From Sphaerochaeta associata (GTDB lineage Bacteria; Spirochaetota; Spirochaetia; Sphaerochaetales; Sphaerochaetaceae): DNA of 64,000 nucleotides. Position 1 is the first letter of the stretch; every line of letters begins with the position of its first letter. The translations under genes were made by a program, and so were the position numbers. The notes below the pieces were generated by a model. The model did no database searches. It saw only the letters and a program-made list of their open reading frames with translations, and was not told the origin of the DNA. The stretch covers positions 868,001 to 932,000 of the forward strand of contig NZ_CP094929.1 in NCBI RefSeq assembly GCF_022869165.1. The letters are read 5' to 3'. This document shows positions 51,330 through 61,790 of this stretch, piece after piece.

Positions 51330-51375
51330 AGATGCTCCTTTCGTGATTTTGTATAGTTTCGATTAACAGATATAA

Positions 51376-51406
51376 ATGATATATCATGTATATTACTAAC
51401 TGTCAA
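51376..51406 (-). promoter_or_regulatory. Promoter/operator of the leftward tctC operon
   Basis: On the minus strand TTGACA (51401-51406) and TATATC (51378-51383) are spaced by 17 bases. The perfect palindrome ATGATATATCAT (51376-51387) covers the -10. The core TGATATATCATTT recurs downstream of the -10 of the isomerase promoter (53158-53169), so one regulator, probably the neighbouring GntR protein (51490-52167), could control both. Confidence 0.7.
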
Positions 51407-51489: not shown

Positions 51490-52167
51490 CTACTTAACCG
51501 AAGAGTTCTTCAAATCCTCGATGAAAGGGTAGTACGAGTCATAGATATGGTCGCGCATCACTTTCTCCGCCTTGTCCGGGTCTTGATCAAGAATGTTGTC
51601 GATCAGGGTGACATGCCAATACCGCTGGATGGCAGGTCTTGCGCGCCTTGATTGCACGGCATTGAAGAGCAGCCAGGTGAAGTTGATCTTCTGAAGGCCG
51701 GCGATGAGGGAGGAAAAGCCTGTACACTCAGCCATCATGACGTGGAAACGGATATGCAACTGGGTGATCTTCTCTGTCTCCGTACCTTCAAAGCGGAGAA
51801 TGTCCAGCTCTTCTGCGAGGGAGCGAAGCGCCTTCTTTTGCTCATCGGTGGCCTTGGTGGCAAGAATCCTTGCCACCTGGCACTCTATGGCTTCCCTGAA
51901 GGCGAACATGTCCATCACCCGTTCGACGGTTGGAATGGTAACGATGGAGCCCCAGTGCGCTTTGTACTCGATCAAGCCATCCTGCTCCAGGCGCTTCATT
52001 GCCTCAAGGATGGGGATCGGACTGACGCCAAGCTCTTGGGCAAGCTGACGGCGAACCAATCTCATACCTGGCTCATATTCGCCTTTCATGATTTTCTTGC
52101 TGATGATCTCATACGCTTTTTCAGCTGCTGTCTGAAAAACCACACCTTTCTGGGCTACCGATTGCAT
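51490..52167 (-). CDS. GntR-family regulator, FCD subfamily (225 aa)
   Basis: The N-terminal winged helix has AYEIISKKIMKGEYEPGMRL, then RRQLAQELGVSPIPILEAMKRL, typical of GntR. The C-terminal helical FCD domain carries the metal/ligand residues in FREAIECQVARILA, LHIRFHVMMAECTG and VMRDHIYDSY. I chose ATG 52167 because GGAGGGAA lies 7 bases upstream. FCD regulators often sense sugar acids or carboxylates. It follows the isomerase gene by 50 bases and is likely to be its co-transcribed autoregulator. Confidence 0.92.
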   Translation of the reverse strand: MQSVAQKGVVFQTAAEKAYEIISKKIMKGEYEPGMRLVRRQLAQELGVSPIPILEAMKRLEQDGLIEYKAHWGSIVTIPTVERVMDMFAFREAIECQVARILATKATDEQKKALRSLAEELDILRFEGTETEKITQLHIRFHVMMAECTGFSSLIAGLQKINFTWLLFNAVQSRRARPAIQRYWHVTLIDNILDQDPDKAEKVMRDHIYDSYYPFIEDLKNSSVK

Positions 52168-52217
52168 GCAATTCCCTCCGTCTTCTGATGCATGATACAT
52201 GTCAAACCTTTTTTTCG

Positions 52218-53141
52218 CTAGTCTTTTATCGGTTTAACCCTGTTCCATGCGAGCAGCAGTGTCCTTTTTGCATTGGCAACCACCAAATCGGGATCCTCGC
52301 TGCCGAATGGCTTCACTTCAAAGCTGACAATCGGGCGCTTCTCCTTGTTCAGGAATCCGATGGACAACAGGCACTGCAGGTAATCGGCCAGTTCCTGTAC
52401 ATCGTTCTCGCCTCCCGGGAACCCGAAGCGGGGGTGCAGGTCTCCATATCCGGGAAGGGAAGAGTCCTTGACGACGCAATTTCCCATGTGGGCGTGGGTG
52501 ATGTATTTCTTGACCGGCATCAATGACTCTTCGATGGTCTCATGGAGCAGGGGAATATGGCTGAGGTCGACCAGCAAGCCAAACTCGGGGTACTCCGTGC
52601 GAATCTCTTTTGCATACCGCTTGGCCAGTGATGCAGGTCCGATGAGGCTCTTCTTATCGATGTCGTAATCGAAGACTTCCAGAGCAATTTTCAAAGTACC
52701 TTTCGATGCTGCATACGCGCAGATTTCCTTGGTGGATGCCACCAATGCCTGATAGGATGCTTCCACTGTTGCTTCTTCATATTTGCCGCTGAGGAAGGCA
52801 AAGGAGCTCGCACCCAGTTCATAGGCTTCATCAATGCCTTCTTTCAAGTTTGCCACTGCCAAAAGCCGTTTCTTCTCATCCAAATCGTTTATATTCATCT
52901 TGGTGGAAAGCAGTCTCGGCTGGGCTCCATAGGCGAGCGTAAGGGCGGCTGTATCTTTCATGAATCGAACCTGCTTCCTTGCTTCACTATCGCGGATCCA
53001 CGTTACTTCCACAGCTTCGAAGAAAGGATCTGCGGCGATTTTCTTGAATGTTTCAACGATCGGACCTTCCCCGCTTGAAACCGGATAGGCCATGAAGTGG
53101 ATGAGGCCGACTTTCATATAGCTGGATAACGCTTCGTGCAT
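52218..53141 (-). CDS. Sugar-phosphate isomerase/epimerase-like TIM barrel (307 aa)
   Basis: Xylose-isomerase-like superfamily. Candidate metal ligands lie in IALEVFDYDID (Glu), LLVDLSHIPLLHET (Asp, His), ITHAHMGNCV (His) and VSFEVKPFG (Glu). The ATG at 53141 has GAGGAG upstream. It is transcribed from a strong promoter in the regulatory core and is followed by the GntR gene. It probably interconverts a keto or hydroxy-acid sugar in the TTT pathway; the exact substrate is unknown. Confidence 0.85.
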   Translation of the reverse strand: MHEALSSYMKVGLIHFMAYPVSSGEGPIVETFKKIAADPFFEAVEVTWIRDSEARKQVRFMKDTAALTLAYGAQPRLLSTKMNINDLDEKKRLLAVANLKEGIDEAYELGASSFAFLSGKYEEATVEASYQALVASTKEICAYAASKGTLKIALEVFDYDIDKKSLIGPASLAKRYAKEIRTEYPEFGLLVDLSHIPLLHETIEESLMPVKKYITHAHMGNCVVKDSSLPGYGDLHPRFGFPGGENDVQELADYLQCLLSIGFLNKEKRPIVSFEVKPFGSEDPDLVVANAKRTLLLAWNRVKPIKD

Positions 53142-53157: not shown

Positions 53158-53202
53158 ATGATATATCAGATATATTGTAAGAGTGATATTCCCGTCTGTC
53201 AA
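53158..53202 (-). promoter_or_regulatory. Promoter/operator of the isomerase-gntR unit
   Basis: On the minus strand TTGACA (53197-53202), a 17-base spacer and TACAAT (53174-53179). Right downstream, at 53158-53169, lies ATGATATATCAG (plus-strand reading), sharing AAATGATATATCA with the tctC site at 51374-51386. Confidence 0.72.
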
Positions 53203-53274: not shown

Positions 53275-53325
53275 TTGACAGCAGCCAGAAAAGGATGGAA
53301 TCTAATAATCAGTGATTATCAGATT
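53275..53325 (+). promoter_or_regulatory. Promoter/operator of the second gntR gene
   Basis: TTGACA lies at 53275-53280. A 27-base near-perfect palindrome occupies 53299-53325 (half-sites AATCTAATAATCA and TGATTATCAGATT around a central G). The same palindrome with two changes lies in front of the rightward tctC gene at 54185-54211. Confidence 0.8.
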
Positions 53326-53339
53326 AGAAGGGGAGCCAT

Positions 53340-54044
53340 ATGGACCAGGTCTTGGACAGTCTTTGCAGGGATGAAGAGGATAGGATGGTGCTCACTCTGG
53401 TGGGTTACATCCGGGAGAAGGGGATGAAACCCGGTGACAAGCTGCCCTCCATCCGGACCTTCTCCAATGAACTTGGAGTTTCCCAGAGCCAGGTGCGGTC
53501 GGGATTCCTGCGGGCGGCTGCAATGGGGGTTCTGAAGATCGTGCCCCGCAGCGGGTGCTACCTGGCCGATGTTTCACTTTCAAGCATCATCGGCCCCTTT
53601 ACCTTATTGTTTGAAGCCATGTACATGAACGTACAGCCCCCTTTGATGGATCTGTATGAACTGAAGACCACCTTGGAACGTGGAATTTCCAAACGGGTTG
53701 CTGCCATTCGTACGATTGAGGACCTTGCAGAGTTGAAACTGTTGCTTGATGCCATGGAGACGGTAACCGAACATGCCGAGATGGTACGTCTTGATGAGGC
53801 ATTTCATGAGAAGTTGGCGAACAGTACGAGAAATCCTCTCTTTATCTCCTTGATGCGGGTCATTCACTCGATGCTTCGCCATAGCAGGTTGTCCTATTCG
53901 GATTTTGTCTCTGAGTTTCCTCAATCAAGAAAGGATCATCGTGCCTTGTATGAGGCACTCCGTGACCAGGATGCCCTGAAAGCTGCCGATATTGCAGAAC
54001 AACATAGTAACCGACGGAAACTTTTATTAGTGAAGAATTATTAG
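53340..54044 (+). CDS. GntR-family regulator, FCD subfamily (234 aa)
   Basis: N-terminal GntR helix-turn-helix: GYIREKGMKPGDKLPSIR, TFSNELGVSQSQVRSGFLRA. The FCD-type C-terminus has LYELKTTLERGISKRVAA, DEAFHEKLANSTRNPLF and DHRALYEALRDQD. The ATG at 53340 follows AGGGGAG. Two copies of a 27-base palindrome, one on its own promoter and one on the rightward tctC promoter, make it the likely autoregulated controller of the rightward TTT operon. Confidence 0.93.
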   Translation: MDQVLDSLCRDEEDRMVLTLVGYIREKGMKPGDKLPSIRTFSNELGVSQSQVRSGFLRAAAMGVLKIVPRSGCYLADVSLSSIIGPFTLLFEAMYMNVQPPLMDLYELKTTLERGISKRVAAIRTIEDLAELKLLLDAMETVTEHAEMVRLDEAFHEKLANSTRNPLFISLMRVIHSMLRHSRLSYSDFVSEFPQSRKDHRALYEALRDQDALKAADIAEQHSNRRKLLLVKNY

Positions 54045-54145
54045 CCATTTCAGTTGAATCTGTGCTGAAAGCGATATAATATATATGATATATAACGTAT
54101 AAAATATTATAATAGAAGTAATTAAACAGATTTTACACATTTTGG

Positions 54146-54211
54146 TTGACAGATGATATATGCATTGTATACTTAGTATATCAGAATCTGATAATCAGTG
54201 ATTAGCAGATT
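54146..54211 (+). promoter_or_regulatory. Promoter/operator of the rightward TTT operon
   Basis: TTGACA (54146-54151), a 16-base spacer and TATACT (54168-54173) form a near-consensus promoter. The GntR-type palindrome (54185-54211: AATCTGATAATCA, G, TGATTAGCAGATT) begins about 11 bases after the -10, where a repressor would block transcription. The spacer also contains ATGATATAT (54153-54161) and a similar motif lies at 54085-54096, related to the site of the other operon. Confidence 0.85.
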
Positions 54212-54290
54212 CCGCCCTTCGGATAGGGTGTAATACACTTGTGGCTTTCTTCTTTCCGTGGGGGAGAATGAAAGGTACGTGGAGGTTCTT

Positions 54291-55277
54291 ATGCGTGGGA
54301 AAAGAGTACTTGTCCTTCTTGCATTGTTGGTAGTGGCGTCTGTCGCCTTGTTTGCACAGGGTGCCCCTGAGGCATATCCCAGCAAAGACATTGAATTCAT
54401 TGTCAGCTCGGGTGCCGGTGGTGGTACTGATGCCATTGCCCGCAAAGTCTCCCAGCTTGCCGAGAAAGATCTTGGAGCAGCAATCTACTTCGTCAACAAG
54501 CCCGGTGCCGATGACGCAGTCGGTCCGAACCTGCTGATGGGTGCAAAGAATGATGGATACACCATCGGCAACCTCAACTATGGCTCGATTATCAATGCTC
54601 CGTTCACCGGTCTTATCAAGGGATATGAACTGTCCAAGGTTCGCTTCTTTGCTCTGATCACCCAGGAGCCCGATGCCCTGATGGTTGGAAAGAACTCCCC
54701 CTATAAGACCTTCGACGCTCTCATTGCTGCTGCAAAAGCCAACCCGGGCAAAATCCGTGTTGCCGACCAGGGTATTGGAAGCCGTGTAAACCTGCTTGCT
54801 CTGAAGATCCAGGACCTTTATGGTGTGAAGTTCAACATGATTTCCTACCAGGGTTCCGCTCCCCAGAGAGAAGCAATCCTCAATGGTGAGGTTGATGCTG
54901 CCATTACCAGCCTTGGTGACTTTGCTCCCATCCTCAACAGTGGTGATGCTCTTGGTGTGATTGAGTTCAGCACAGTGCGCAATGCCGGCTATCCTACTGT
55001 ACCCACCAGCAAGGAGCTCGGTCTTTCCGACAGTCTCCTCTCTGGATCCTTTTTAACCCTCGCTGCCCCTGCTGGAACTCCTGATGACGTAATTGCCAAA
55101 CTGGAAACTGCTTTCGAGAAGGCTGCCACCAGTAAGGAATTTGCAGACTGGTCCGCTACAGTGGGTGTTACTCCTGACTTCAGGAAGGGCGCAGAATTGA
55201 AGGCCTTCCTGGATGGCAAGATTTCCGGTGAGACCAAGGCTCTGCAGGCACTCAAGGATGCAGGTGTTTTGAAGTAA
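54291..55277 (+). CDS. tctC: TTT transporter substrate-binding protein TctC (328 aa)
   Basis: I chose ATG 54291 (MRGKRVLVLLALLVVASVAL, a signal peptide) with GGAGG upstream. The mature start AYPSKDIEFIVSSGAGGGTD is the TctC/Bug family signature. Further conserved parts are NKPGADDAVGPNLLMGAKN and NPGKIRVADQGIGSRVN. It differs strongly from the leftward TctC, so the ligands are probably different. First gene of the rightward operon. Confidence 0.95.
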   Translation: MRGKRVLVLLALLVVASVALFAQGAPEAYPSKDIEFIVSSGAGGGTDAIARKVSQLAEKDLGAAIYFVNKPGADDAVGPNLLMGAKNDGYTIGNLNYGSIINAPFTGLIKGYELSKVRFFALITQEPDALMVGKNSPYKTFDALIAAAKANPGKIRVADQGIGSRVNLLALKIQDLYGVKFNMISYQGSAPQREAILNGEVDAAITSLGDFAPILNSGDALGVIEFSTVRNAGYPTVPTSKELGLSDSLLSGSFLTLAAPAGTPDDVIAKLETAFEKAATSKEFADWSATVGVTPDFRKGAELKAFLDGKISGETKALQALKDAGVLK

Positions 55278-55314
55278 GCGTGTCTTGGACTCTGATTGTA
55301 TTGGAAAGAACAAA

Positions 55315-55341
55315 CTACCGCATGGCATTGCCATGCGGTAG
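55315..55341. other. Stem-loop between tctC and tctB (rightward operon)
   Basis: CTACCGCATGGC and GCCATGCGGTAG form a perfect 12-bp stem with a 3-base loop, 37 bases after the tctC stop. No T-run follows. Position and lack of T-run match the stem-loop of the leftward operon. Confidence 0.75.
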
Positions 55342-55404
55342 GTCTTGAAAACATTGCACAAGGATGAGCCTTGAGCCTGTCTTGTGAATGGAGAAGAACA
55401 TTCT

Positions 55405-55893
55405 ATGAAAACTCTTAAGCCGTATCTGCAAGCAAAGGTGACAATTCCCTTCTTTATGCAGGTTGCCCTTATCATCTATGTAATCAGTGCGTTACAGTTG
55501 GCGCCTCCAATGGTTGATGGCTTGCTCAGCGAGTCATCGTTTCCCTTCTTGATTTTTTTAATTGCATCACCGGCAGCAATAAAGCTTTTTCTTGATGGCT
55601 TGAAAGCTATTAAGAAAGAAATCGCTGAAACCGGCTCAGTGGTTGTTGTCAAAAAAAAGAAAAGTATCAAACCTGCATTGATTGTCCTCATCATGGCTGT
55701 GTTTATCCTGCTGTTTGAAATACTTGGTTTTACCATCCTTGCTCCGCTCTACGTATTTTTCTTTATGTTGATCTATGATGATAAACCCCAGGATATCGTG
55801 AAGAAGATCATCTATGCGCTCTTGATCGGGGTGGTTGTGTACGTCATGTATGTCATCGGTTTCGACATCAGATTCCCTGAGCTTTGGAGGTAA
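55405..55893 (+). CDS. tctB: TTT transporter small membrane subunit TctB (162 aa)
   Basis: Four hydrophobic segments: VALIIYVISALQLAPPM, FLIFLIASPAAIKLFL, ALIVLIMAVFILLFEILGFTI and IIYALLIGVVVYVMYVIGF, with a Lys-rich loop (VVKKKKSIK). ATG 55405 is preceded by GGAGAAG; a GTG at 55384 is in frame but has no ribosome-binding site. Its position between tctC and tctA supports the call. Confidence 0.9.
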   Translation: MKTLKPYLQAKVTIPFFMQVALIIYVISALQLAPPMVDGLLSESSFPFLIFLIASPAAIKLFLDGLKAIKKEIAETGSVVVVKKKKSIKPALIVLIMAVFILLFEILGFTILAPLYVFFFMLIYDDKPQDIVKKIIYALLIGVVVYVMYVIGFDIRFPELWR

Positions 55894-55896
55894 TTC

Positions 55897-57438
55897 ATGG
55901 ACCAAATACTGCAAATTCTGGCAGGAACAACGGTTGTCTTCCAACCCTTGTCCCTCCTCTATCTTTCGATCGGCTTTTTCATCGGCATCATTTTCGGCGC
56001 CCTGCCGGGTTTGACGTCCATGCTCGCAATCGTCCTTCTGCTTCCGATGACCTACACCATGCCGATGACCTATGCCCTGATCATGTGCATGGGTGTCTAC
56101 ATGTCCGGCATCTACTCCGGAAGCATCACCGCAATCACCATCAACATTCCGGGCGCTCCTTCTGCATTGATGACCTGTCTGGAAGGCTATCCGATGATGC
56201 GCAAGGGCCTCGGTGCAAAAGCCATCGGCCATGCTACCATCGGTTCGGCCATCGGTGGTTCGATTGGTGCCCTGTTGCTGATCTTCGTCTCTCCCATGGC
56301 AGTGAGCCTTGCACTGAAGATCAGGACCCCCGGCAAATTCTCCTTGATACTCTTTGCCCTGGTTGTCATCGTCATCGTTGAAAAGAAACGTATGAAGGCA
56401 ATCCTCACCATGGCATTCGGCATCATGCTGGCGACAGTCGGGATGGATCCGCTGAAGTCGGTCTCGCGCTTCACCTTCGGTATTCCCAATCTCATTGAAG
56501 GCATCGATTTGACCACCCTTATCATCGGCGCTTTCGCGATCAGCGAGTTGTTTGACCAGGCTATGGTCAATAATGCCGAATACAAGAAAATCACATCAGC
56601 CGCCAACAGCGTGAAGTTCAAGCGCAGAGAGTTCTTCCCCACCTTCCAGGAGATGAAGGAAGCTGGCTGGAAAACCTATCTCAAGAGCTCCTTGATCGGG
56701 TACATCATCGGTGTCCTCCCCGGCGCCGGAGCCTCGATGGCTGCTTTCGTTTCCTATGTCGAAGCCAAGCGGGTGAGCAAGCATCCCGAACGGTTCGGCA
56801 GTGGTGCAGTCGATGGTCTTGTTGCCGCAGAGACAGCAAACAACGCCATGTGCGGAGGTGCCATGGTACCGATGCTCTCCTTGGGCATCCCCGGCGACGG
56901 GACCACCGCCATCATCCTTGGTGTCTTGATGGTCTATGGTGTCGTACCCGGACCGGACCTGTTGGTCAAGCAGATGCATGTCATGGCTCCCATGTATATG
57001 GCCTTGTTGATCAGTGCTGCTTTGTTGCTGCCACTCAGTCTCTTTCTCTTCGGTCCCTATTACCTGAAGATTGTTCGGATCAATCGGTTGGTTCTGTACA
57101 GTTCCATCGCCTTGATTGCAATTCTCGGAGTTTTTGCTGCGACCTATTCGGCATTCCAGATGGGCTTGGCCTTGGTCATCGGTGTTGTCATGTACTTCTT
57201 CAAGAAACAAGGATACCCGAACGTGCCATTTATCCTGGCAGTAATTCTCGGTCCGCTGGCAGAGCAGTATATGCGTACTACTATGACCATCAGCAGTGGC
57301 AATCCGCTTATTTTCATCACCCATTTTGACAGCTTGTTTTTCCTGCTGCTCACCGTGGCTTTTGCGATTCTTCTCCCGCGTGCCAATAGACGGGCGGATG
57401 CTATGGAAAAGAAGGCTGAAGATAAGGTGAAGCTGTAA
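55897..57438 (+). CDS. tctA: TTT transporter large membrane subunit TctA (513 aa)
   Basis: TctA motifs: FGALPGLTSMLAIVLLLPMT, YSGSITAITINIPGAPSAL, EGYPMMRKGLGAKAIGHA, VLPGAGASMAAFVSYVEAKR and GLVAAETANNAMCGGAMVPM. Length and about 12 membrane segments are typical. GGAGG precedes the ATG. The stop overlaps the aldolase start (TAATG), coupling the transporter to catabolism. Confidence 0.96.
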   Translation: MDQILQILAGTTVVFQPLSLLYLSIGFFIGIIFGALPGLTSMLAIVLLLPMTYTMPMTYALIMCMGVYMSGIYSGSITAITINIPGAPSALMTCLEGYPMMRKGLGAKAIGHATIGSAIGGSIGALLLIFVSPMAVSLALKIRTPGKFSLILFALVVIVIVEKKRMKAILTMAFGIMLATVGMDPLKSVSRFTFGIPNLIEGIDLTTLIIGAFAISELFDQAMVNNAEYKKITSAANSVKFKRREFFPTFQEMKEAGWKTYLKSSLIGYIIGVLPGAGASMAAFVSYVEAKRVSKHPERFGSGAVDGLVAAETANNAMCGGAMVPMLSLGIPGDGTTAIILGVLMVYGVVPGPDLLVKQMHVMAPMYMALLISAALLLPLSLFLFGPYYLKIVRINRLVLYSSIALIAILGVFAATYSAFQMGLALVIGVVMYFFKKQGYPNVPFILAVILGPLAEQYMRTTMTISSGNPLIFITHFDSLFFLLLTVAFAILLPRANRRADAMEKKAEDKVKL

Positions 57439-58217
57439 TGATTGGAAAAAACTACAATGCTGTGAAGGCGAAGTTGCAGCAGGGTGGGAATGTGTTGGCG
57501 GCCTGGGCTCAGGCTGCCAGCAATATTACCACTGAAGTACTGGCGGATGCCGGCATGGAAGCCATCATCATTGACATGGAGCACTCTCCAGTCGATCTTC
57601 CCACCTTGGTGACACAGTTTCAGGCGATGAATGGATACCCCGCTGTCCCGTTTGTACGTGCTCCTTGGAATGACTTTGTGATGATCAAACGGATTCTGGA
57701 TGCAGGGGCCTACGGCATCATCGTCCCCAATATCGAAACTGTTGAGGAAGCAAAGGCTGCCATTGCAGCGGTCCACTATCCCTTGGATGGGGTTCGCGGC
57801 GTAGCAGCCAGTACGAGAGCTGCCCACTTCGGCAATGATCCTCTTTCTTATTTCAAGAAAGCCGATGATTTGGTGATGCTTTTTCTCATGATTGAATCGC
57901 CGAAGGGTATGGAGAACCTTGATGAGATTCTCAAGCTCGACGGCTTCGACGGCATCATGGTAGGACCTGTTGATTTAGCAACCAACCTCGGCTTCTTGGG
58001 AAATGCCCAGGCGCCTCAGGCCAAGGCTGCACTTGAGGAAGTTGAGGCGAAAGTCCTGGCATCTGACAAGTACCTGATGGCGCTCGGTTCGGACTGGGAA
58101 GCCGCCAAGGCAAAGTTTGCAAAAGGGGCTCACATCGTTACCTGTATGAGTGATACGCTTTCACTTGGAGCTCTTGCTCGGGCGAATGTACAGAAGTATC
58201 AGGAACTTACTACCTGA
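57438..58217 (+). CDS. HpcH/HpaI-family aldolase (259 aa)
   Basis: Same family as the leftward aldolase but clearly different in sequence. Signatures: IIIDMEHSPVDLPTL (catalytic His region), VPFVRAPWND (pyruvate-binding Arg), LMIESPKGMENLDEI (metal Glu) and IMVGPVDLATNLG (metal Asp). In galactarate/glucarate catabolism the related GarL makes pyruvate and tartronate semialdehyde from 5-keto-4-deoxyglucarate; the GarR-like reductase further down the operon supports a similar route here. Confidence 0.9.
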   Translation: MIGKNYNAVKAKLQQGGNVLAAWAQAASNITTEVLADAGMEAIIIDMEHSPVDLPTLVTQFQAMNGYPAVPFVRAPWNDFVMIKRILDAGAYGIIVPNIETVEEAKAAIAAVHYPLDGVRGVAASTRAAHFGNDPLSYFKKADDLVMLFLMIESPKGMENLDEILKLDGFDGIMVGPVDLATNLGFLGNAQAPQAKAALEEVEAKVLASDKYLMALGSDWEAAKAKFAKGAHIVTCMSDTLSLGALARANVQKYQELTT

Positions 58218-58229
58218 AGGAGACAACCT

Positions 58230-59210
58230 GTGAAAACGGTACTAATTCCCGAGGATATCGCCGAGGTGGGCAAAGCCTACCTTCGTGAACGGGGCTATTC
58301 CATACGCATGGGCAGAGGGACCGACAAGGCCTCCCTGCTTGCCGATATTGCTGATGTCGATGCGGTTTTGTTTCGCAACGAAGCGTATGACAAGGAAATC
58401 CTCGATGCTGCGAAGCAGGTGAAGGTCATGGCCCGGCATGGGGTGGGAGTAGACAAGGTCGATCTGGCCCATGCCGAAGAATTGGGGATTTGGGTGACCA
58501 ACGGAGCCACTTCAAATTCCAACTCGGTGGCGGAGATGACGATCGGTTTCATCATCGCGCTCGGTCGTAACCTGCTGGAGAGCAACAAAGCCGCCCATGC
58601 CGCCGATTACGGTTTTCGCAACCGCAAGGCGGGCATGGATCTTGAAGGGAAAACGCTCGCGTTGCTGGGCTACGGAAAAATCGGCAAGCTGGTGGCAAAG
58701 AAAGCACATTATGGACTTGGTATGAAGGTGTATGCCTATGATCCCTTGCTCGATCAAATGGATAAACCCGACTATGTCCACAAACTGGACCACTTCGATG
58801 ATGCATTCCGTATAGGAGACTATGTTTCGGCGCACTATCCAGCAAGTGAGCAGAACAACAAGACAATTACCATCGATCAGTTCAGATTGATGAAACAAAG
58901 TGCGTATTTTTTGAATCTTGCACGCGGTGAAATCTTGGTGGAAGCTGACTTGCTTGAGGCGTTGCAACAGGGTTTGATAGCTGGAGCGGCACTTGATGTG
59001 ATGAACGATGAACCGCCTAAGGCGGATAATCCGTTGCTGGCGATTGAGCATTTGTTGCTTACTCCGCATAATGCAGCACTGACAAGCGATGCAAAAATCC
59101 GCATGGCGCTGTTTGCAGCCCAAGGAATTGATGAAGTGTTGTCCGGAAAGACTCCTTCCTGGCCGGTCAACAATCCGCCTGTACCACGAGCATCCATGGA
59201 GGTTCTATGA
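58230..59210 (+). CDS. D-2-hydroxyacid dehydrogenase, phosphoglycerate-dehydrogenase-like (326 aa)
   Basis: NAD-dependent D-2-hydroxyacid dehydrogenase. Catalytic domain start with VMARHGVGVDKVDL; Rossmann motif ALLGYGKIGKLVAKKA (GxGxxG, about residues 148-153); NLARGEILVE with the catalytic Arg; DVMNDEPP (Glu region) and LTPHNAALT with the catalytic His. It lacks a C-terminal ACT domain, so it is a catabolic type rather than the serine-synthesis enzyme. GTG start with GGAGACAACCT. Overlaps the next gene by four bases. Confidence 0.9.
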   Translation: MKTVLIPEDIAEVGKAYLRERGYSIRMGRGTDKASLLADIADVDAVLFRNEAYDKEILDAAKQVKVMARHGVGVDKVDLAHAEELGIWVTNGATSNSNSVAEMTIGFIIALGRNLLESNKAAHAADYGFRNRKAGMDLEGKTLALLGYGKIGKLVAKKAHYGLGMKVYAYDPLLDQMDKPDYVHKLDHFDDAFRIGDYVSAHYPASEQNNKTITIDQFRLMKQSAYFLNLARGEILVEADLLEALQQGLIAGAALDVMNDEPPKADNPLLAIEHLLLTPHNAALTSDAKIRMALFAAQGIDEVLSGKTPSWPVNNPPVPRASMEVL

Positions 59211-59914
59211 AGTATTTGACAGAAGCGCAATTAGAGGAACTCAGACAGTTTGATACCCCGACAGTGTGTAACGCCATCGAAAAGTTCAAGCTGAGAAGCA
59301 AGACCGAAGGATTCACCTCACCGGCCATCAAGGCACTCTTTCCTGATAGAAAACCAATCGTCGGCTATGCCTGCACTGCAAAAATCAGTGCCAGGTATCC
59401 GGGAACCAAGGAGAACGAGGAGACGTTGTATGCGTATTATCAGTCCATTCTCGATTGTCCTTCGACACCCATTTCCATCATTCAGGATATCGATGAAGAG
59501 CCGATCGGCTCCTTCTGGGGAGAAGTGCAGACTACTGTACACAAGGCGCTTGGTTGCATGGGTGTGGTGACCAACGGCGGGGTGCGCGATCTCGACGAGG
59601 CCTACTCGCTGGGCTTTACCTATCTTGCCTCCTGTACCTTGGTTTCTCATGGATACATTCATATGGAGGCAACCGGTACTCCGGTGGAAATCGGCGGCCT
59701 GATCGTGCGTCCCGGCGATCTCATCCATGCCGACAAGCACGGTGCTGTCTTGATCCCCAACGAAGTTGCCGACCAGGTTGCCGATGCCTGCCGTCAGATG
59801 CAACAGGCTGAGCTTCCCGTCCTCAATGGATGCAAGGCGACCGAGGACGGTAAACTGGATCTTGCTGATTTGCGCCTGTGGCGTGCCGAGATGGCAAAGC
59901 TGCGCAGCAAGTAA
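59207..59914 (+). CDS. RraA-family protein (HMG aldolase / oxaloacetate decarboxylase-like, 235 aa)
   Basis: RraA-like fold shared by 4-hydroxy-4-methyl-2-oxoglutarate aldolases, oxaloacetate decarboxylases and the RNase E inhibitor RraA. FDTPTVCNAIEKF is the start, MGVVTNGGVRDLDEA holds the metal/substrate Arg and Asp, and IVRPGDLIHADKHGAVLIP is the second signature. Sitting in a carboxylate operon, it is more likely a metal-dependent lyase or decarboxylase than RraA itself. Start ATG overlaps the previous stop (ATGA) and has GGAGG upstream. Confidence 0.85.
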   Translation: MKYLTEAQLEELRQFDTPTVCNAIEKFKLRSKTEGFTSPAIKALFPDRKPIVGYACTAKISARYPGTKENEETLYAYYQSILDCPSTPISIIQDIDEEPIGSFWGEVQTTVHKALGCMGVVTNGGVRDLDEAYSLGFTYLASCTLVSHGYIHMEATGTPVEIGGLIVRPGDLIHADKHGAVLIPNEVADQVADACRQMQQAELPVLNGCKATEDGKLDLADLRLWRAEMAKLRSK

Positions 59915-59941
59915 CTCACATACTCAAGAAAGGAAACAACT

Positions 59942-60826
59942 ATGAAGATTGGATTCATCGGACTAGGCATCATGGGCAAGCCCATGGCAAAGAACCTGCT
60001 GAAGGCGGGCCACGAGGTGGTGTGCTTCGATGTGAACAAGGATAACGTGGAGAACGTGGTGGCGGCCGGGGCGAAGGCGGCGGCGAGCGCGGCCGACGTA
60101 GCCTCCCAGGTCCCCCTGGTGATCACGATGCTGCCCAACAGCCCCCACGTCAAGAGCGTGGTGATGGGCGAGGGCGGGGTGCTGGAGGGGGCGGCCGAGG
60201 GCCTGATCCTCATCGACATGTCCTCCATCGCCCCGCTTGCGAGCCAGGAGGTGGAGAAGGCCTGCGCGCAGAAGAAGGTGCGCATGCTGGACGCGCCGGT
60301 TTCCGGGGGTGAGCCGAAGGCGGTGGACGGGACGCTTGCGATCATGGTGGGCGGAGAGAAGGCCCTCTTCGAAGAGGTGAGGGAGATCCTGCTGGTGATG
60401 GGCTCCAGTGCGGTGCACTGCGGGCCGATCGGGGCGGGGAACACGACCAAGCTGGCCAACCAGGTCATCGTGGCGCTGAACATAGCGGCGGTGGCGGAGG
60501 CGTTCACGCTGGTGCGCAAGGCGGGTGTGGACCCGCACCTGGTGTTCGAGGCGATCAAGGGCGGACTTGCGGGCAGCACGGTGATGAACGCCAAGGCGCC
60601 GATGATGATGGATTCGAACTTCAAGCCGGGCTTCAAGATCGACCTGCACATCAAGGACCTGGCCAACGCGCTGGACACGGGCCACGGGGTGGGCTCCCCG
60701 CTTCCCTTGACGGCCCTTGCACGCGAGATGATGGAGACCCTGCACGCCGACGGCTTCGGAGGCGACGACCACAGCGCCCTGGCCCGCTACTATGCGAAGC
60801 TGTCCGGCACCGCAATCGGGGAGTGA
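59942..60826 (+). CDS. garR: 2-hydroxy-3-oxopropionate (tartronate semialdehyde) reductase-like enzyme (294 aa)
   Basis: Beta-hydroxyacid dehydrogenase family. N-terminal GFIGLGIMGKPMAKNLLKAG (NAD(P) site), MLDAPVSGGEPKA (substrate-binding loop), GAGNTTKLANQVIV with the catalytic Lys. The length matches GarR/GlxR, which reduce tartronate semialdehyde to glycerate. Related 3-hydroxyisobutyrate dehydrogenases look similar, so the substrate is inferred from the aldolase in the same operon. From about codon 18 on, the third codon positions are almost all G or C, unlike the preceding genes. Confidence 0.88.
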   Translation: MKIGFIGLGIMGKPMAKNLLKAGHEVVCFDVNKDNVENVVAAGAKAAASAADVASQVPLVITMLPNSPHVKSVVMGEGGVLEGAAEGLILIDMSSIAPLASQEVEKACAQKKVRMLDAPVSGGEPKAVDGTLAIMVGGEKALFEEVREILLVMGSSAVHCGPIGAGNTTKLANQVIVALNIAAVAEAFTLVRKAGVDPHLVFEAIKGGLAGSTVMNAKAPMMMDSNFKPGFKIDLHIKDLANALDTGHGVGSPLPLTALAREMMETLHADGFGGDDHSALARYYAKLSGTAIGE

Positions 60827-60828
60827 GC

Positions 60829-61734
60829 ATGGATACTTCCTTCATCAAGGGGATCATCCCCCCGATCGTGACCCCGATCAAAGAGGACGAGACGCTGGAC
60901 GAGACTGCGCTTCGCAAGCTCATCGACTTCGTCATAGAAGGCGGGTGCTCGGGCATCCTGGCCTTCGGCTCCAACGGGGAGTTCTACATGATGGAGGAGG
61001 ATGAGATGGAAAGGGCCCTGTCGGTCATGATGGACCAGGCGGCCGGCCGGGTGCCGGTGTACATGGGCGTGGGAAACATCCGCACCACCAAGTGCATCCG
61101 CCTCGCCCGGATGGGCGCCTCGATGGGAGCGAAGGCCGTCTCGATCCTGCAGCCGATGTTCATCAAGCCCACCGACGAGGAGCTGAAGGGCCACATCAGA
61201 AGCATAGCCGCATCGGTGCCCGATACGGCGGTGCTCTTGTACAACAACCCCGGGCGCTGCGGCTACGCGATGAGCCAGGAGCTGGTAGAGGAGCTTGCAC
61301 ACTCGGTGCCCAACCTTGTGGGCATGAAGGACTCCAGCGGGGACCTGACGCAGACCATCGAGTTCATCAGGCGAAACGCCGACGTGAACTTCCGCGTGAT
61401 GTGCGGCAAGGACACGCTGATCTACTCGGGCCTGTGCGTCGGGGCCGTGGGGGCTGTGTGCTCTACGGCCAACTACCTGCCCAAGCTTGTCTGCTCGATC
61501 TACGACAAGTACGTGAGCGGGGACCTGAAGGGTTCTTTGGAGGCGCAGTGGGAGCTGAACCCGATCAGGCTGGCAACCGACAAGTCGAGCTTCCCTGTTG
61601 CGACCAAGGACCTGGCGAACCTGGTGGGCATGCAGGTGGGAAGCCCGTTTTTGCCCAACCTGAGCTCGCCGCCCAAGCAGATCGAGCACCTGAAGAGGCA
61701 GCTGGTCGACGGCGGCTTCGAGGTGGTCGGCTGA
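60829..61734 (+). CDS. DapA-family lyase/aldolase (301 aa)
   Basis: N-acetylneuraminate lyase/dihydrodipicolinate synthase superfamily. IIPPIVTPIKEDETLDE is the start, GSNGEFYMMEEDE the first active-site loop, VLLYNNPGRCGY carries the catalytic Tyr and LVGMKDSSGD the Schiff-base Lys. Lacking further context it could be KDG aldolase, 5-keto-4-deoxyglucarate dehydratase or a similar enzyme; true DapA is less likely in this operon. I chose ATG 60829 (GGGGAG upstream) rather than GTG 60823. It shares the G/C-rich codon pattern of the previous gene. Confidence 0.88.
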   Translation: MDTSFIKGIIPPIVTPIKEDETLDETALRKLIDFVIEGGCSGILAFGSNGEFYMMEEDEMERALSVMMDQAAGRVPVYMGVGNIRTTKCIRLARMGASMGAKAVSILQPMFIKPTDEELKGHIRSIAASVPDTAVLLYNNPGRCGYAMSQELVEELAHSVPNLVGMKDSSGDLTQTIEFIRRNADVNFRVMCGKDTLIYSGLCVGAVGAVCSTANYLPKLVCSIYDKYVSGDLKGSLEAQWELNPIRLATDKSSFPVATKDLANLVGMQVGSPFLPNLSSPPKQIEHLKRQLVDGGFEVVG

Positions 61735-61758: not shown

Positions 61759-61790
61759 AGTGGAGGCTGTCCGAAAGGGCGGCCTTCACT
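61759..61790 (+). terminator. Terminator of the rightward TTT operon
   Basis: A 14-bp stem (AGTGGAGGCTGTCC with GGGCGGCCTTCACT, including three G-T pairs) and a GAAA tetraloop, followed by GTTTTCTCC. It lies 24 bases after the stop. Confidence 0.9.

Follow-up and report, generated by a model that had tools for sequence, protein, structure and literature searches.

We propose that GntR2, the second of two neighboring GntR regulators, is very probably an autoregulated repressor of an eight-gene operon that encodes a TTT transporter and an aldolase pathway. It would act as a dimer of the FCD type on two palindromic operators, O1 and O2, one at its own promoter and one at that of the operon, and a ligand would release it from both. 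Ligand-free GntR2 would cover O2, just past the point where operon transcription begins, as well as O1, which spans the -10/+1 region of the gntR2 promoter. Occupancy of O2 would shut off the operon, and occupancy of O1 would limit GntR2 synthesis. A carboxylic or sugar-acid ligand from the pathway would then bind at the FCD metal site, and GntR2 would leave the DNA. We infer binding and repression from the sequence, its conservation, its co-occurrence with gntR2 and its placement relative to predicted promoters. A first-pass annotation had proposed an autoregulated switch for the whole operon, and both the comparative data and the placement of the sites over or just after the promoters favor it. 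For a spirochaete lineage, the locus offers a clear set of regulator, operators and operon that can be tested. Its features lie in the window, which is the whole 64,000-nucleotide stretch of Sphaerochaeta associata DNA that was analyzed.

Table 1. Positions of the regulator genes, predicted promoters, predicted operators and operon in the window.
Feature	Position	Strand	Description
GntR1 gene	51490 to 52200		neighboring FCD GntR regulator
GntR1 word (likely operator)	53158 to 53175; 51370 to 51393		TGATATATCA in ATGATATATCAGATATAT context; ahead of leftward gene 52218 to 53141 and tctC1
gntR2 promoter (predicted)	53275 to 53303	+	TTGACA (53275 to 53280), 17 nt, weak -10 GAATCT (53298 to 53303) overlapping O1
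Operator O1 (predicted)	53299 to 53325	.	AATCTAATAATCAGTGATTATCAGATT; ahead of gntR2
O1 left unit	53302 to 53312		CTAATAATCAG; 9/10
O1 right unit	53312 to 53322		GTGATTATCAG; 9/10
gntR2	53340 to 54044	+	winged-helix GntR domain and FCD ligand-binding domain with D152/H156/H200/H222 metal set
Operon (tctC) promoter (predicted)	54146 to 54173	+	TTGACA-16-TATACT; 11/12 consensus
Operator O2 (predicted)	54185 to 54211	.	AATCTGATAATCAGTGATTAGCAGATT; about +5 to +31 of predicted transcript
O2 left unit	54188 to 54198		CTGATAATCAG; perfect
O2 right unit	54198 to 54208		GTGATTAGCAG; weaker
Operon (predicted target)	54291 to 61734	+	from Pfam, NCBIfam and gene order
Terminator-like hairpin	61759 to 61790	+	14 pairs; end of eight-gene operon

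O1 and O2 share 25 of 27 bases, and each keeps 12 of its 13 dyad pairs intact. Both near-palindromes are present exactly where the first-pass annotation had put them. Its claim that their length and symmetry exceed chance held, because dinucleotide shuffles of the window gave no match to the 27-mer with up to three mismatches. It had also suggested searching for the palindrome elsewhere in the genome, and a third copy (up to three mismatches) is absent from the whole 3.55-Mb genome. The refuting outcome that it had named, a palindrome common in other places, did not arise. The 27-bp palindrome that it described as half-sites around a central G is there, but its organization is better given as two 11-bp dyads, CTGATWATCAG, that have one base in common and centers 10 bp apart.

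GntR2 belongs to the FCD (FadR/VanR) subfamily of the GntR family by its sequence. The Pfam GntR domain was matched at 1.3e-7 (31.6 bits; cut-off, 27) and the FCD domain at 2.7e-20 (73.5 bits; cut-off, 24.3). The Asp-x3-His, His, His set of the FCD domain is present, and none of the four residues (D152, H156, H200 and H222) varies among 12 orthologues; they align with the D/H/H/H residues of CGL2915 (PDB 2di3). Therefore, by analogy with the family, GntR2 is probably a metal-dependent, carboxylate-sensing protein. In the winged helix, R39, QSQ49-51, R53 and the wing PRSG69-72 are invariant in the same 12 orthologues despite overall identity down to 40 to 44%. The best NCBIfam match was NanR (NF003011), whose score of 78.2 bits is far below its cut-off of 260; LldR (NF007741; 56.1 versus 311) and GlcC (NF007442; 49.6 versus 301) were likewise below their cut-offs. 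A predicted GntR2 structure (mean pLDDT, 78) matched GntR-family structures in Foldseek, including the NanR-DNA, DhdR-DNA, Atu1419-DNA and FadR-DNA complexes, with a top E value of 1.7e-9. The TM-scores were about 0.45 to 0.5, probably due to uncertain domain orientation in the model. A literature search for Sphaerochaeta plus GntR returned nothing relevant.

The operon encodes TctC, TctB, TctA, an HpaI/GarL-type aldolase, a D-2-hydroxyacid dehydrogenase, an RraA-like protein, a tartronate-semialdehyde reductase and a DHDPS-family enzyme. In NCBIfam, the reductase scored above its family cut-off, and the GarL/HpaI-like aldolase scored below. This gene content suggests that the operon imports a sugar diacid or a related acid. 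Aldarates and D-glucarate are among the known substrates of TTT transporters (PMC13390454). Because the reductase and the aldolase accompany a TTT importer, the GntR2 ligand could be among the aldarates, which is our guess. Other congeners have an extra gene of the transaldolase/fructose-6-phosphate aldolase family between the HpaI aldolase and the 2-hydroxyacid dehydrogenase (L032, 3980 to 5014). In a second genus, the TTT operon can sit apart from gntR2 (L099, 5915 to 7141; also L038 and L039), and a box, CTGATAAACAG / ATCACTGATAAACAGAT, is conserved about 180 nt ahead of the separate tctCBA in these three loci. We considered the CTGATAAACAG box as an in-trans member of the GntR2 regulon and set this aside, given that a divergent PucR/CdaR-like regulator (HTH_30) adjoins the box in G048 and may own it instead.

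We compared the distribution of the 27-mer with that of gntR2 in 26 congeneric genomes. Each of the eight genomes with a gntR2 orthologue has the 27-mer (up to three mismatches), and the 18 without one all lack it; the 27-mer always flanks gntR2 or the first gene of the operon. If the genomes were independent, the odds of this exact eight-genome coincidence would be 1 in 1.56 million (26 choose 8), but they are not phylogenetically independent, and gntR2 shares one locus with its sites, which means that the co-occurrence is partly inheritance of one block. Therefore, we take it as strong linkage and not as proof. Four genomes of the second genus carry a GntR2 orthologue (42 to 45% identical) and a diverged operator 51 to 63 nt past gntR2. 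In three of them (G048, G042 and G047), the gene behind the site encodes the HpaI aldolase, in place of tctC. The site follows gntR2 even there, so it goes with the regulator and not with one structural gene.

A site model returned gntR2 loci as the top matches in 12 of 139 genomes of the family. The site profile found the second-genus copies at an E value of about 1e-4 per genome, and some of these sites had been used to build the profile, so the matches are not independent. Weak matches elsewhere, among those inspected, lay mostly within unrelated genes or at their borders; we dismissed them as chance. Tandem TGATWATCAG-like words occur between two unrelated genes in G043 (L065, about 1480 to 1560), and partly also in G064; by eye, one flanking gene is AlbA-like and the other ATPase-like. 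Both genomes lack gntR2.

O1 has TTGACA on one side and the gntR2 ribosome-binding site on the other. Ahead of gntR2, each of the eight congeners has TTGACA, 17 nt and a weak hexamer at the same place, and in the six genomes where the gntR2 site is complete, it overlaps the hexamer; the arrangement was not found in the second genus. The operon promoter has a 16-nt spacer in 12/12 genomes. In the window, O2 starts 11 nt past the -10 element, where a bound repressor had been expected to block this near-consensus promoter. Across the 12 genomes it always starts 8 to 11 nt past the -10 element, or at about +2 to +5 of a transcript whose start is predicted from promoter sequence. A protein bound at O2 would block initiation or escape. 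With operators over or just past the promoters, the position fits repression. The stretch between gntR2 and tctC yielded no terminator. We rejected fixed-phase DNA looping between O1 and O2, because their spacing varies across genomes (881, 882, 886 and 933 bp) and the phase is not constant.

Sequence alone cannot give the sign of regulation, and GntR2 could instead bind the sites and activate the operon or serve as an antirepressor. We consider this improbable. The operon promoter, which O2 follows, is near consensus and should need no activator, an activator site would be expected ahead of the -35 element, and the sugar-acid regulators described in this family are repressors (PMC12288454).

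The inner structure of the sites points to a difference between the two promoters. At the operon, one CTGATWATCAG unit is perfect in 12/12 genomes, whereas its partner scores 5 to 8 of 10; the perfect unit is the left or the right one, depending on the species. The score of the second unit is best at an offset of 10 bp (mean, 7.3 of 10, versus 2.2 to 5.2; offsets of 7 to 16 bp compared). At the gntR2 promoters, only one of the 12 genomes (L036) has a perfect unit, and about six retain a single unit. Among the eight congeners, O1 has the two-unit form in six (one end is trimmed in G091) and one unit in two (L029 and L031). In the second genus, the 27-bp dyad is degraded (7 to 8 of 13 pairs in three genomes) and the perfect unit is retained, so that conservation across genera is limited to one of the two dyads. 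Upstream of gntR2 in that genus there are single weak units at best, which in three of four genomes are not significant (shuffle P, 0.10 to 0.13). Because O2 alone keeps a perfect unit, we predict from the sequence that the operon is controlled more tightly than gntR2.

Two features of the sites count against the repressor model. The single unit upstream of gntR2 in L029 and L031 and the weak sites in the second genus are one. The other is that the unit reads GA..TC at positions given as GT..AC in the FadR-type consensus: in CTGAT-W-ATCAG compared with TKGT-N3-ACMA, the G/C at -3/+3 match, but A/T replaces T/A at -2/+2. We also tried an isolated 17-bp unit, AATCTGATNATCAGATT, as a genome-wide marker and rejected it, because its matches were at background level (15 of 139 family genomes, two at gntR2 loci); within the genus, their frequency resembles that of a reversed control.

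A tentative and somewhat doubtful extension of the repressor model is that the overlapping dyads, which lie one helical turn from each other, form a composite operator. One face of the DNA might then hold two GntR2 dimers or a tetramer, and the strength of a site might be tuned by eroding one unit. If so, the operon would have a perfect unit and a weak one, and gntR2 would have two weak units or a single one. A single dimer may instead span the 27 bp.

The palindromes could also be operators of another regulator, such as GntR1, which is likewise an FCD GntR and controls a TTT locus 1 kb away. In the rightward promoter region, the sequence at 54076 to 54096 matches the GntR1 word at 15/18 positions. 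The closest relative (L028) does not share this match, which possibly reflects cross-control or chance. However, the dyad TGATATATCA, which differs from the GntR2 word, is present at the GntR1 loci in all nine genomes with a GntR1 orthologue, and it is likely the GntR1 operator. In two of these genomes (G109 and G080), GntR1 and its word are present, and gntR2 and the 27-mer are both missing. Conversely, G111 and the four second-genus genomes lack a GntR1 orthologue but carry gntR2 and a 27-mer-type site. The separate words and the mutual absences make GntR2 the likely binder of the 27-mer, in line with the original assignment of the palindrome to the second GntR, and we regard an operator of GntR1 or another regulator as very improbable. 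The predicted operator words of two neighboring FCD GntR regulators, CTGATWATCAG and TGATATATCA, can thus be told apart.

Just as improbable is a role for the sites at the RNA level, as leader or mRNA-stability hairpins, in place of one as DNA operators: O2 is inside the predicted 5' leader, which folds better than shuffles (54181 to 54290; z, -3.8; 27-mer alone, -3.0), but the hairpin is gone in the second genus (z about 0 in the two genomes tested) while the left unit CTGATAATCAG is still perfect, only part of O1 would be transcribed because it overlaps the predicted -10 element, and Rfam gave no match. A small hairpin of the CCCTTC-GGATAGGG type directly follows O2 in the predicted tctC2 leader, and similar-looking ones occur in other species.

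For repression by GntR2, the overlapping double-dyad operator is the sole unusual detail, and the rest of the layout is standard and of a known kind. We know of no solved example of the overlapping-dyad mode for an FCD GntR regulator. DgoR of Escherichia coli, the closest working parallel, serves other metabolic genes and is not known to control a TTT transporter. This GntR/FadR-type regulator of D-galactonate genes is a repressor whose dimers occupy two closely spaced inverted repeats that overlap the promoter (PMC12288454). Common to both would be the family, repression by a sugar-acid regulator, paired inverted repeats and relief by the substrate, which for GntR2 we infer (PMC12288454). Unlike those of DgoR, the GntR2 repeats overlap by one base, with centers 10 bp apart. 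Atu1419 of Agrobacterium fabrum, of the VanR-type FCD group, is similar in having a metal-binding domain, one palindrome per dimer and identical short palindromes at different promoters, its own among them; it binds a 10-bp palindrome, ATGTATACAT, in single units 190 bp apart, and its tetramer loops the DNA (PMC7797058). The GntR2 operators, in contrast, are double units 886 bp apart. NanR of E. coli is an FCD GntR that packs several dimers onto a single operator past the RNA polymerase site, but it differs in its direct GGTATA repeats, its 32-residue N-terminal extension for cooperativity and its sialic-acid ligand (PMC8012715). GntR-family sites can carry a weaker extra box 7 to 12 nt from the core center, and SdhR has a nested palindrome, TCTTATGTCTTATATAAGACATAAGA; the GntR2 sites resemble these in their core palindrome, weaker neighbor and nested symmetry (PMC4494728). 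SdhR is of the HutC subfamily, and the extra boxes of the family sites are reported as half-sites, whereas the congeners here have a full, weaker dyad at 10 bp.
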